A stretch of 64,000 nt of DNA from Pseudomonadota bacterium (GTDB lineage: Bacteria; Pseudomonadota; Gammaproteobacteria; Acidiferrobacterales; UBA6901), in contig JAKASJ010000001.1 of assembly GCA_021819085.1 (NCBI GenBank), positions 186,001 through 250,000 on the forward strand. Direction: 5' to 3'. A program made the translations under genes and the position numbers. Below, in pieces: positions 38,811 through 64,000 of the stretch. The stretch's first letter is position 1, and every line of letters begins with the position of its first letter. The notes under the pieces are model-generated. The model was not told where the DNA came from, did no database searches, and saw only the letters and a list, made by a program, of their open reading frames with translations.

Positions 38811-38906
38811 TTTGTAATGTTTGCCAGCGCTACCGGCATCGTCCGGAACTGGAATAAAATAATGGCCGGTGCCGTCTTTTACGGTTAACAAACTCGAGCA
38901 AAACGA

Positions 38907-39479
38907 ATGGACTTTCTCAAATTATTCGGCCAGACCAAGGGCGTTGAAGATGCACTGGAACAGAGCCGTGCCCGTCTCTACCGCATGGCTTATGCGTGGT
39001 GTCACAATCGCGCGCTGGCCGACGATCTGGTGCAGGAGACCCTGACCAAGGCAATGCAAAAATCCGCGCAGCTGCGCGACCCGAAAGCGCGTGACGCCTG
39101 GCTTTTCAGCATCCTGACCAACTGCTACCGGGATCACTTCCGGCGCCATCGGGAGATGGAGGATATCGACGAAATGGAGTTGCCGCACGACTCCACTCCC
39201 GAAACCGAGAACAACCAGCTGGAAATCGTCCGCAAGGTGCGTGCGACCATCGCGCGGCTTCCGGAAGGACAGCGTCAGGTTATCACGCTCGTTGATCTCG
39301 AAGGCTTCTCCTACGTCGAAGTCGCCAAAGTATTGGACATACCGATCGGAACCGTCATGAGCCGCCTGTGCCGCGCGCGCAACGCCATGCTGCGCCTGCT
39401 CGCTACCGAGTTCGGAAGCCAGGAAGCACTCAAGACGGCTACAGTCCGGCAGGAAGCCAATATAAGGAGAATAAAATGA
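38907..39479 (+). CDS. ECF-type sigma-70 family RNA polymerase sigma factor
   Basis: 190 residues. Region 2 contains YRMAYAWCHNRALADDLVQETLTKAM and the DNA-melting and -10 contact stretch (DAWLFSILTNCYRDHFRRH). Region 4 contains LPEGQRQVITLVDLEGFSYVEVAKVL and GTVMSRLCRARNAM, a helix-turn-helix for -35 recognition. There is no region 1 or 3, so it belongs to the extracytoplasmic-function class. Its stop overlaps the start of the anti-sigma gene (ATGA), so the two are coupled. A GGAACT at about 38846 may be part of an autoregulated promoter, but spacing to a -10 is unclear. Confidence 0.94.
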   Translation: MDFLKLFGQTKGVEDALEQSRARLYRMAYAWCHNRALADDLVQETLTKAMQKSAQLRDPKARDAWLFSILTNCYRDHFRRHREMEDIDEMELPHDSTPETENNQLEIVRKVRATIARLPEGQRQVITLVDLEGFSYVEVAKVLDIPIGTVMSRLCRARNAMLRLLATEFGSQEALKTATVRQEANIRRIK

Positions 39480-40258
39480 GGGATGATGGAACATTTTCGG
39501 ACGAACACCTGAACGCGTTCGTCGACGACCAGCTGGCGCTCGATGAAAAGAGTCGCGTGTACAGCGTGATCGGCAAAGACGAGGCGATAAACCGCCGGGT
39601 GTGCGAACTGCGCAAGGTGCGGGATCTCGTACAGATGGCGTACAAAAATCCGCCGGAGGCTCCGACCGGTGCCCCCACCAAGACCAATCGCCCTACCCGG
39701 CTGCGGCACAAGTTGGGCGCCGGCGCGGGGGCAGTCATAGGCGTCCTGGCGCTGGTGAGCGGCTTGCAGCAGGATAGCGGCAGCTTCGGCCTGGCTGGCG
39801 GCAGCGCCGCCGTGGCACTGACGGCACCGGCGGGAACGGAGAGAAATCGTGCTTCCGCGGGGCAGGTGGCGAGCGCGGCGACACCCGGCGGTCAGGTAAT
39901 CAAGGTCCTCTTTCACCTGAACAGCGGCAATCCGGCACACATGAAAGAAGTGCTGGATGAAACCCAGAATCTGCTCAATCTTTACCAGCGCAAGCATCAG
40001 AAGGCGCGTGTGGAGGTCATCACCAACGGTGAGGGGCTTAACCTGCTTCTCGCCGGCCGCTCGCCCTACCCCGCGCGCGTCATGTCGATGCTGAAGAAGT
40101 ACAAGAATCTTCAGTTCGCGGCCTGCCTGAATACGCTGGACCGCTTCGGCGGCGAGGGCATCTCGACCAAACTGCTGCCCGGCACCACCGTGATCGATTC
40201 GGGCGTGGCGCAAATAATCCGCCTGCAACAGAGGGGATGGATTTACATTCAGGTCTGA
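39476..40258 (+). CDS. Membrane anti-sigma factor with C-terminal DsrE-like domain
   Basis: 260 residues. The ATG at 39476 follows AAGGAG and overlaps the sigma stop. Residues 1-60 (DEHLNAFVDDQLALDEKSRV, ELRKVRDLVQMAY) resemble the cytoplasmic helix bundle of anti-sigma factors but lack the H-x3-C-x2-C zinc motif. One transmembrane helix follows at about 82-100 (GAGAVIGVLALVSGLQ), then a Gly/Ala/Thr linker. From about residue 135 a DsrE/F fold begins: VIKVLFHLNSGNPAHM, VEVITNGEGLNLLLAG, LQFAACLNTL, LLPGTTVIDSGVAQIIRLQQ, GWIYIQV. One Cys sits in AACLN, the position of the active Cys in sulfur-relay DsrE proteins. The predicted topology puts this domain in the periplasm. Confidence 0.85.
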   Translation: MRDDGTFSDEHLNAFVDDQLALDEKSRVYSVIGKDEAINRRVCELRKVRDLVQMAYKNPPEAPTGAPTKTNRPTRLRHKLGAGAGAVIGVLALVSGLQQDSGSFGLAGGSAAVALTAPAGTERNRASAGQVASAATPGGQVIKVLFHLNSGNPAHMKEVLDETQNLLNLYQRKHQKARVEVITNGEGLNLLLAGRSPYPARVMSMLKKYKNLQFAACLNTLDRFGGEGISTKLLPGTTVIDSGVAQIIRLQQRGWIYIQV

Positions 40259-61545: not shown

Positions 61546-62451
61546 ATGGCATGCAGTCACACGAAAAACTGTGAGCTTTTCCCGCAGTTCGCACTGAACC
61601 CTGCACTGAAAGTCTGGCAGGTTCACTACTGCGAAGGCGAATTCACCCAGTGCGCGCGCTACCAGCGTTCCCTCGAAGGGAAAACAATTCCTCTGAATCT
61701 GCTGCCCAACGGCAAGCGCATTGAAACACCGCGCACTTCGACCGCCTACGGTGCAGCGGCCCTTTTCAATGCGATCCTGAAGGATCGCGTGCACATGGTG
61801 GAGTCCCTGCTGCGCACTGGCGTCAATATCAGCGTCCGCAACCCCGAGGGCATGACTCCGCTCATGGCGGCGGCAACCCGCGGCAATATCCCCATCATTC
61901 GCCTGCTGCTTTCCAAGGGTGCTGACGTCTCCGCGACCAACCTGCATGGGATGAACGCCCATGACCTGGCGATCCAGACAGGTCTCTCGCAGGCCGCCAA
62001 GATCATCGCTGCCGCCGGCGGGCGGCCGAGTGGCATTCCCCTGGCAAGCACCGTCGCGGAGCCCGCAGCGGCACACCAGGAGGCGGACGAACAACTGCCT
62101 CGAACGCCGGCAGCGCAGTTCGTACCGCTCGCTGGCGAACGCGCGCACGCCGCCGATCGCGGACAGGGCTGTTGCCTGTGGATCCCGACGCGCGATGCCC
62201 ACGGGGTCGCCCAGGAAATCACGCATGCCTGCGGCGACAGCTACATCACCATCGAGGCGATGGTCCACAAGGCAGCGGCCGACGACCAGAGCCCTGCCTC
62301 GGTCATCGTGATCACCGGTCCGGTTGGCGACGAGGACACGATCCTGGGCATAGTCCGGCGTCTCGAGACATTCAGCGCAGTATCGGGTCCGATCCGCTGC
62401 ATGCGGCTCGAATCAATCGCAGTGCCGGAACTGGCGAGAACCGCGACATGA
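61546..62451 (+). CDS. Cys-motif / ankyrin / ACT-like fusion protein
   Basis: 301 residues, soluble. AGAGGGGG lies upstream of the ATG. The first 57 residues hold four Cys (3, 9, 29, 36) in C-x5-C...HYC-x6-C, with FPQFALNPALKVWQVHYCEG and LNLLPNGK, suggesting a small metal or redox module. Residues 68-160 are about three ankyrin repeats (GMTPLMAAATRGNIPIIRLL, GADVSATNLHGMNAHDLAI). After a Pro/Ala linker, residues 225-295 look like an ACT-type fold (SYITIEAMVHKAA, VIVITGPVGDEDTILGIVRR). The next gene overlaps its stop (ATGA). The function is unknown; a regulatory or adaptor role for the transporter is inferred. Confidence 0.75.
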   Translation: MACSHTKNCELFPQFALNPALKVWQVHYCEGEFTQCARYQRSLEGKTIPLNLLPNGKRIETPRTSTAYGAAALFNAILKDRVHMVESLLRTGVNISVRNPEGMTPLMAAATRGNIPIIRLLLSKGADVSATNLHGMNAHDLAIQTGLSQAAKIIAAAGGRPSGIPLASTVAEPAAAHQEADEQLPRTPAAQFVPLAGERAHAADRGQGCCLWIPTRDAHGVAQEITHACGDSYITIEAMVHKAAADDQSPASVIVITGPVGDEDTILGIVRRLETFSAVSGPIRCMRLESIAVPELARTAT

Positions 62452-63074
62452 TGAACTACTGGCCGTGGTGGCTCGGATCTTTGGCGCTTGCTGCCATCAC
62501 TATCGGCTTCTGGCTGCTGTTGCGACGCCCGCTGGGCGTTTCCGGCAGCTGGGCAAGCATCGTCGGCTGGCGTGAGGCGCGCGCCGTTGCGCGGGCCGAA
62601 GCCCCTTTGCGCGTCAACGCAACAGCCATGGGTGACGCCCTGCTGGCGGCCACGCTGGCCGAATTCGGCGAACAGGCCACACTCCAGTCCCTGGCGAGAC
62701 CCGGTGCAGGTGCCAAGTCTCCCTCCAAAGCGATCTCGCCGGGCGCACGCGCACACTGGTCCGTTCATCTGACTTTCCTTGCCGCAATGTTTGTGGGCGG
62801 ATTCATCGCAGCGACGCTGAACGGCACCTTTGCGCTTCGCTTTGATCTCGGACCGGTATATACGCAGCTGTTCGGGTCGGGATGGCATTCCTGGCTGCTG
62901 CTGATGCTCGGCGGCGGACTGGTCGGCTTCGGTACCCAGATGGCGGGCGGATGCACCTCGGGACACGGATTGAGCGGCTGCTCGCGCCTGGTGCCAGCAA
63001 GCCTGCTGGCTACCGCGATATTCTTCGCGACCGCGGTCGGAATCTCCTTCCTCGCACAGGTACTGGCAAGATGA
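62448..63074 (+). CDS. YeeE/YedE-family membrane protein, half-size (first subunit)
   Basis: 208 residues. One N-terminal helix (WWLGSLALAAITIGFWLLL), a cytoplasmic or periplasmic stretch of about 70 residues, then three helices with the family signature GFGTQMAGGCTSGHGLSGCSRL. The Cys of GGCTSGHG corresponds to the thiosulfate-handling Cys in characterised YeeE proteins. It is half the length of a fused YeeE and is coupled by ATGA overlaps to genes on both sides. It probably moves a sulfur compound inwards together with the next protein. Confidence 0.88.
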   Translation: MMNYWPWWLGSLALAAITIGFWLLLRRPLGVSGSWASIVGWREARAVARAEAPLRVNATAMGDALLAATLAEFGEQATLQSLARPGAGAKSPSKAISPGARAHWSVHLTFLAAMFVGGFIAATLNGTFALRFDLGPVYTQLFGSGWHSWLLLMLGGGLVGFGTQMAGGCTSGHGLSGCSRLVPASLLATAIFFATAVGISFLAQVLAR

Positions 63075-63496
63075 AAAAGCAATCGGTCTTCGGACAGCAT
63101 CTCGTCTACGGACTTCTGGGGCTGGCCCTGGGGTTTTCCCTGAGCCGCATCGGTTTTGCCAGCTACAGCCAGGTGCACCGCATGTTCGTCTTTTCCGATC
63201 TGCGCCTGCTCTATACCTTCGCCGGCGCCGTCGTCCTCACCATGATCGGATTCCTGGTGTTTGCCCACGGACAGCGGATTCCGTCCAAACCCTTCCATCC
63301 CGGCACGATCCCCGGCAGCATCCTGTTCGGCGCAGGCTGGGCCCTGACCGGTTCCTGCCCGGCGATCGCGATCGTGCAGCTGGGCGAAGGCCAGCTGGCG
63401 GCGGCGTTTACTCTGCTCGGGATTCTGTTCGGCGTATGGGTCTACCGGCAGGCACATGCCCAGTTCTTCCACTGGGACAGAGGTGCCTGCGAATAG
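63071..63496 (+). CDS. YeeE/YedE-family membrane protein, half-size (second subunit)
   Basis: 141 residues with four helices. The opening YGLLGLALGFSLSRIGFASYSQV and the later GAGWALTGSCPAIAIVQLGEG are the signatures of the other YeeE half, including its conserved Cys in TGSCP. The ATG at 63071 overlaps the previous stop. Pairs of half-size proteins of this kind are common in sulfur bacteria next to rhodanese, TusA or DsrE genes. Confidence 0.9.
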   Translation: MKKQSVFGQHLVYGLLGLALGFSLSRIGFASYSQVHRMFVFSDLRLLYTFAGAVVLTMIGFLVFAHGQRIPSKPFHPGTIPGSILFGAGWALTGSCPAIAIVQLGEGQLAAAFTLLGILFGVWVYRQAHAQFFHWDRGACE

Positions 63497-63644
63497 GATT
63501 GCGGCATGTCACCCGGGAATCCGGGCCGGCCGCTGAACTTCGTTGCCCACCGGGCTCCGCAGGCAGCACGGAAAGCTTGTGTCGAGCCGCGCCATGCGCG
63601 ATGCTTCCGTCAGATCCCCGGATTCGCAACCCAGGCAGACATCG

Positions 63645-64000
63645 ATGCATTACGCACGCAAGACGGCATTCCTCATCGCCACTCTGGCGCTGTTCCTGTC
63701 TTCGGTTCCCGCGCCGGCAGCAGCATCCGCGTACCACCCCGGGGTGATCGTCCAGGTCAGCAACAAAGACCCCGAATCGTGGGACCTCACTCTGCTCAAC
63801 ATCAAATATATACAGGAACAGACCACGAAAAACAGCCTTCCGATCGAAGTTGTCGCGTTCGGTCCCGGCGTCTACATGCTGATGCGCAATTCGGTGGTAC
63901 GCAACGGCCTGCGCCGGGCGATGCAGCATGGCGTGCGCTTCGTTGCCTGCGAGACCAGCATGCGCGCCCGCAGAATTATGCGCAAAGACATGTACCCGGG
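63645..64000 (+). CDS. Exported DsrE-family protein (3' end outside window)
   Basis: At least 118 residues; the frame is open at the window end. A signal peptide covers about residues 1-27 (ARKTAFLIATLALFLSSVPA then AAASA). The mature part matches the DsrE/F fold: VIVQVSNKDPESWDLTLLNI, IEVVAFGPGVYML, HGVRFVACETSMRARRI, with Cys in ACET at the sulfur-relay position. No ribosome binding site is obvious. It lies 148 bases after the second YeeE gene in the same direction and so may handle periplasmic sulfur for that transporter. Confidence 0.85.
   Translation, partial: MHYARKTAFLIATLALFLSSVPAPAAASAYHPGVIVQVSNKDPESWDLTLLNIKYIQEQTTKNSLPIEVVAFGPGVYMLMRNSVVRNGLRRAMQHGVRFVACETSMRARRIMRKDMYP

Follow-up and report, generated by a model that had tools for sequence, protein, structure and literature searches.

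The locus studied here raises the question of what signal is read by an ECF sigma factor whose partner anti-sigma protein ends in a predicted periplasmic domain of the DsrE family, and which genes such a pair would control. It has been stated that little is understood of how the regulators in sulfur oxidisers perceive external sulfur (PMC11582611). In the reading that we consider likely (probability about 0.78, with no experiment behind it), the pair is a transmembrane switch for thiosulfate (Sox) oxidation, which activates sox genes when periplasmic sulfane sulfur loads a single cysteine, Cys217. Below, the window is the whole stretch of DNA that was analysed (64,000 nucleotides), and coordinates refer to it unless a contig (C) is named.

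The sigma gene and its fused anti-sigma partner

The sigma factor (38907..39479, plus strand) is a 190-residue protein with regions 2 and 4 only, both of whose Pfam models score over cut-off (Sigma70_r2, 4e-12; Sigma70_r4_2, 5e-17), and it matches TIGR02937 (sigma70-ECF). Its gene shares the letters ATGA (39476-39479) with the adjoining gene, whose translation (39476..40258, plus strand) is a 260-residue membrane anti-sigma protein with a C-terminal DsrE domain. The original prediction, made from the sequence alone, had described an ECF sigma and anti-sigma pair overlapping by ATGA, with a DsrE-like domain fused to the anti-sigma protein; the pair held, with exact coordinates and Pfam support, and the observation as a whole was confirmed.

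A set of 64 distinct full-length homologues was gathered from the window's order and the wider class. The sigma gene lies directly upstream of the anti-sigma-DsrE fusion in all 64, many of them with the same ATGA overlap, and the anti-sigma role is assigned from this position and co-conservation; physical inhibition of the sigma factor is inferred. The original prediction had called for homologues with the fusion and an adjacent sigma gene, and 64/64 carry both. It had also named what would refute it, namely homologues in which the DsrE part is a separate gene, joined here by a sequencing error; every homologue is fused beside its sigma gene, and such a join is rejected. In two genomes (G266 and G155; L090, L091), two sigma/anti-sigma-DsrE pairs stand side by side, each with a promoter match.

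Within the window's order, a match to the anti-sigma protein was found in 52 of 57 genomes, and in about 40 of these it covered most of the protein; full-length relatives are spread across the Gammaproteobacteria (in the GTDB sense). No full-length fusion was found outside this class in a 397-genome sample of the phylum, where other classes matched the DsrE part only. Matches on Azospirillum and other plasmids were rejected as relatives, as they too cover the DsrE part only, and the one neighbourhood examined has no sigma gene.

The N-terminal domain and membrane helix

The cytoplasmic sigma-binding domain is assigned to residues 1-60 (39476..39655, plus strand) on the basis of sequence, homologues and weak profile matches. 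The Hx3Cx2C zinc motif of ZAS anti-sigma factors is absent from the window protein, in agreement with the original prediction, and H11 and C43 are the only His and Cys residues in the N-terminal domain; despite the missing motif, C43 (codon 39602-39604) is kept in 56/64 homologues. The N-terminal half weakly matches zf-HC2 in seven of 15 relatives and RseA_N in two of the 15, a resemblance that would fit an anti-sigma domain whose zinc ligands have disappeared, although this is inferred from sequence alone.

A single transmembrane helix is placed at residues ~79-97 (39710..39766, plus strand), with the positive side N-terminal. This segment has a mean hydropathy of 2.04, with a net charge of +5 before it and -1 after it. 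Across the 64 homologues the middle segment averages 2.08, is the most hydrophobic segment in 63, and has the more positive flank on its N-terminal side in 60. Hydropathy and charge in 64 homologues support one membrane helix between the cytoplasmic and periplasmic parts, as expected of a transmembrane anti-sigma protein, with the direction of the topology being inferred. The helix foreseen ahead of the DsrE domain is upheld on these grounds, and the absence of a helix, which would have counted against the original prediction, was not observed. An AlphaFold model of the full-length protein, computed with five close orthologues, was poor (pLDDT 36) and was discarded; the topology therefore rests on hydropathy and homology.

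The DsrE domain and its invariant cysteine

The predicted periplasmic domain, of the DsrE/MTH1491 type, is set apart from the helix by a linker, spans residues 142-260 (39899..40255, plus strand) and is supported by sequence, model and fold matches. At the sequence level it matches MTH1491 (1l1s) with an E-value of 5e-10. Pfam DsrE scores 20.3 bits on the window protein, just under the gathering cut-off of 22.7, and is matched at E <= 0.1 in nine of 15 relatives. An AF2 model of the domain alone (seven sequences) reached a pLDDT of 89.6 and a pTM of 0.83, and a Foldseek search with this model returned 1l1s at E 1.1e-9. The VIA-align Z score was 18.1 to 1l1s, 13.5 to E. coli YchN and 12.6 to TusBCD and DsrEFH chains; the best structural matches, with Z from 18.1 to 11.8, are all DsrE/YchN/TusD proteins, and the next match falls to 6.6. 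The DsrE/DsrF-like (PF02635) assignment is met both in fold, as predicted by the model, and in the cysteine at the family position. The complete DsrE/F-type fold that had been predicted is upheld by the sequence match, the domain model and the structural matches; the proposed structure prediction has been run, and the refuting outcome, a domain without this fold, did not arise.

The codon of Cys217, within the motif AACLN, lies at 40124..40126 (plus strand). This predicted sulfane-sulfur-binding residue aligns with the Cys of MTH1491 in a profile alignment, is invariant in 64/64 homologues, and is the only conserved Cys in the periplasmic domain. Among the positions tallied, only D17, Cys217, Trp255 and Tyr257 never change in the 64 homologues; a 15-member set with identity down to 26% shows the same invariant residues plus A14, G228 and G254. 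In other systems this Cys is where DsrE proteins carry their sulfur, and thiosulfate transfer by DsrE3A/TusA has been reported (PMC4175335). The Cys in AACLN singled out by the original prediction is thus upheld as Cys217; that it senses sulfur remains an inference.

A conserved promoter motif upstream of the pair

A predicted ECF promoter, GGAATA-N16-CGTC (-35/-10), was recognized by motif match ahead of the sigma/anti-sigma operon (38851..38876, plus strand; C43:224851-224876 in the window's genome, G000). GGAATA-N15/16-CGTC is present upstream of the sigma gene at 59 of 64 loci (spacing 16 in 54, spacing 15 in five), as compared to a mean of 0.03 in first-order shuffles. The genome-wide scan used a stricter form, GGAATAWWN14CGTC, with the reversed pattern as control; across the order (57 genomes) the motif occurs 220 times, and the control 30 times. 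Per genome this amounts to 4.33 versus 0.49 in the 49 genomes counted as carriers (a count that included G046, a genome without a match), whereas the eight genomes without the full-length fusion show no excess (1.0 versus 0.75). A chance origin of the motif is rejected by the shuffles and the reversed control. Individual matches in the window's genome were put down to chance where they lay near guaB or within long reading frames. The motif predicts, without experiment, that the sigma operon is autoregulated, and on the same footing the ECF criterion of an own promoter together with a conserved downstream regulon is met.

The predicted regulon

About 80 promoter sites were retrieved, the downstream genes were clustered, and families were identified with NCBIfam and Pfam. 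The recurrent targets are the sigma gene itself, a Sulf_transp/TsuA-like (TsuA/SoxT-like) transporter, SoxB, SoxY and SoxX, as well as a YeiH-like exporter, a FadL-like outer-membrane protein, porins, DsrE and a lipoprotein resembling the SoxAX-binding protein. SoxB was identified with 850 bits and SoxX over its cut-off; the SoxY and TsuA-like targets have strong E-values that fall below the NCBIfam equivalog cut-offs and over the Pfam cut-offs. DsbG-like and thioredoxin-like genes are also among the candidates, and it is likely that some predicted targets are chance matches. In the window's genome, sites precede soxB (C4:140793), the sulfur transporter (C4:71415) and a secreted DsrE gene (C43:311939, spacing 17); a further site lies at a contig end (C62:172), ahead of a gene that begins like soxY. 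No promoter site is listed for the second soxB of this genome.

The motif and the fusion are both associated with sox genes, though some carriers do not have the motif ahead of theirs. A site falls within 7 kb of a full soxB in 18 of ~41 genomes, where 1.05 would be expected, and a strict site lies upstream of soxX in six of 20 sampled genomes listed with a fusion match; these genome counts treat related genomes as independent. Class-wide, soxX is present in 45 of the 46 sampled genomes that carry the full-length fusion, against a base rate of 163/370 (P 6e-17), a value that ignores phylogeny, again counts related genomes as independent, and is indicative only. The original prediction had proposed that the pair responds to reduced sulfur, and this theme is supported by the sigma promoter ahead of sox, transporter and DsrE genes and by linkage to a sox operon (see below).

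Separately, we observed that the contigs of L140, L152 and L155 break shortly past the promoter match, and that the readable starts resemble soxY. On account of these breaks, soxY is probably multi-copy and near-identical in these genomes.

Genes that accompany the pair

The linkage is most direct at L096, where the genes for sigma, anti-sigma-DsrE, soxX, soxY, soxZ, soxA and soxB follow one another in the same orientation, and secreted DsrE and porin-like genes are divergent; all of the Sox proteins there pass their NCBIfam equivalog cut-offs. At L058, from the same family, sigma, anti-sigma, soxX, soxY and soxZ are followed by the end of the available sequence, gene identities having been assigned by similarity to L096. 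Downstream of the pair, most genomes of the window's order have a third gene, for a small DsrE protein that bears a Sec-type signal sequence and shares ~25-35% identity with the DsrE domain of the anti-sigma protein. In many other families this gene instead points away from the sigma gene, frequently with a porin-like gene behind it, and the region between the two divergent genes can carry one promoter per strand. The adjacent small DsrE gene is missing in the window's species and some relatives. The window's own neighbours (DUF3108, purM, purN and NUDIX) were rejected as partners, being a context common to the order only that differs in other families.

Two further features of these neighbourhoods were observed. 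The downstream DsrE partner at L080 (6882-7322 in the oriented neighbourhood) lacks the Cys, which suggests a possible non-catalytic role. The porin-like proteins form a secreted family of 440-540 residues (ANW.LQGTEP...VWGFIQP; L096 8503-9957) without a Pfam or NCBIfam match, encoded divergently from the sigma gene beside the small DsrE gene in many families; this family is a candidate for an outer-membrane channel of the regulon.

Proposed mechanism and alternative explanations

In the preferred reading, the anti-sigma protein would hold the sigma factor in check for as long as its DsrE domain has not encountered sulfane sulfur. The domain would reside in the periplasm, the same compartment as the Sox enzymes, where SoxY carries sulfane sulfur, and the sulfur could come from thiosulfate, polysulfide, persulfidated SoxY, or transfer from the small secreted DsrE protein. 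Cys217 would be loaded as a persulfide, and the domain would alter its shape or assembly state so that the sigma factor is freed, whether by conformational change, partner exchange or proteolysis. The freed sigma factor would drive its own operon and the other GGAATA-N16-CGTC promoters (parts of soxXYZAB, the TsuA/SoxT-like transporter, the YeiH-like exporter and secreted DsrE), and this regulon would constitute positive feedback on sulfur use. The gene pair, fusion, fold, helix, invariant Cys, promoter, predicted regulon and sox linkage on which this rests are computationally supported. The direction of the topology, the ligand (thiosulfate, polysulfide or SoxY-bound sulfane sulfur), the role of Cys217 as sensor and the release step are inferred only. 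A bolder version, towards which we lean by a narrow margin, is that the fusion is a conserved one-component periplasmic sulfane-sulfur sensor, whose invariant Cys is persulfidated by the Sox pathway's own intermediate and which signals to an ECF sigma factor that runs sox.

A possible alternative retains the same switch and regulon, but assigns ligand sensing to the small secreted DsrE protein, which would bind the anti-sigma DsrE domain as a hetero-oligomer; the latter would be a docking platform, with Cys217 serving only sulfur transfer or structure. DsrE-family proteins are known to form oligomers, and in most relatives the gene for the secreted DsrE protein is either the next one downstream or divergent, in several cases under the same promoter. 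However, Cys217 is kept in 64/64 homologues, even though the adjacent gene is missing in the window species and several relatives, and the partner may itself lose its Cys, as at L080. The idea that a gene fusion left the DsrE domain behind as an inert remnant has nothing in its favour except that these genomes contain many DsrE paralogues, and is all but excluded by the invariance of Cys, Trp and Tyr in 64/64 homologues with identity down to ~26%.

Two other signals can be entertained, both of which we regard as unlikely. Cys217 could be a general thiol sensor of oxidative or thiol-disulfide stress, with sox controlled because reactive sulfur is itself a stress. The DsbG-like and thioredoxin-like candidate targets favour this view, but the targets are mainly catabolic sulfur genes, soxX accompanies the fusion in nearly every sampled genome, and a lone conserved Cys in the periplasmic domain argues against it. 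Sulfite could instead be the signal, as in the alphaproteobacterial ECF26 systems with the same promoter consensus (PMC6527743); the shared -35 GGAAT and -10 CGTC elements and a YeiH-like putative sulfite/sulfate exporter among the targets speak for it. Against it, the targets are Sox thiosulfate genes and genes for handling sulfane sulfur, no sulfite dehydrogenase was seen among the recurrent targets or neighbours (dehydrogenases were not searched for directly), and the anti-sigma protein beside the nearest annotated S. meliloti plasmid relative is zf-HC2-like and lacks DsrE.

Comparison with known sulfur-responsive systems

Control of sulfur oxidation by ECF sigma factors has been published (PMC3511301, PMC6527743, PMC3445524). 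The ECF26 factors RpoE4/RpoE1 of Sinorhizobium meliloti and SigE of Starkeya novella also have an adjacent anti-sigma gene and sulfur targets (PMC3511301, PMC6527743), and resemble the window sigma factor in promoter consensus (GGAAT / CGTC), although the latter has not been classified by sequence. They differ in their signals (sulfite, tetrathionate or taurine) and in having sulfite dehydrogenases under their control, and the relevant sections of PMC3511301 and PMC6527743 mention no DsrE domain. In S. meliloti, an annotated plasmid-borne relative (36.5% identity to the window sigma factor) has as its neighbour an anti-sigma protein that matches zf-HC2 weakly and lacks DsrE. For ECF sigma factors 2 and 7 of Arcobacter, mutant data show control of soxCDXYZAB, as is predicted here for sox (PMC3445524); however, their regulons are broad (nap, tct, dct), their signal is unknown, and no DsrE sensor is mentioned in the relevant sections of that paper. 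The ArsR-type repressors SoxR and sHdrR of Hyphomicrobium denitrificans, with SoxT1B, likewise link sulfane sulfur to control of sox and involve YeeE-like SoxT transporters (PMC10451225, PMC11582611), but they are cytoplasmic repressors that need sulfur import, whereas the window system is predicted to sense outside the membrane and to act via a sigma factor. Finally, the DsrE/MTH1491/YchN family shares the fold and active-site Cys position of the window domain; its known members either carry sulfur as soluble proteins or have no assigned function, whereas the window domain is tethered to an anti-sigma protein.

The original prediction knew of no described sigma system with this architecture, and this held for the open-access literature searched (subscription papers were not covered), in which no account of such an anti-sigma protein was found. 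What is new is likely to be the sensor, i.e. a periplasmic DsrE domain on an anti-sigma protein, as ECF control of sulfur oxidation was already known. The fusion is a widespread candidate sulfur sensor that offers one cysteine to test, a defined promoter and a predicted sox regulon; with it a sulfur-carrier fold joins the list of anti-sigma sensor domains. If the preferred reading is correct, it would explain part of sox regulation in lineages that oxidise environmental thiosulfate; the bolder version would add an undescribed type of anti-sigma sensor, dedicated to outside sulfur in sulfur-oxidising Gammaproteobacteria.

Other DsrE proteins of the genome

At the right end of the window (62450-64000), a secreted DsrE protein that contains a Cys, and whose gene extends beyond the window, comes after two small membrane proteins assigned by eye as YeeE/YedE-like; ahead of this DsrE gene no GGAATA/CGTC promoter was found. 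The window's genome as a whole has genes for about seven proteins of the DsrE family that contain a Cys and an apparent signal sequence (C43:146991, C43:249822, C43:311315, C8:8770, C76:64642, C48:12309 and C58:53096); this complement of predicted periplasmic DsrE proteins is unusually rich.
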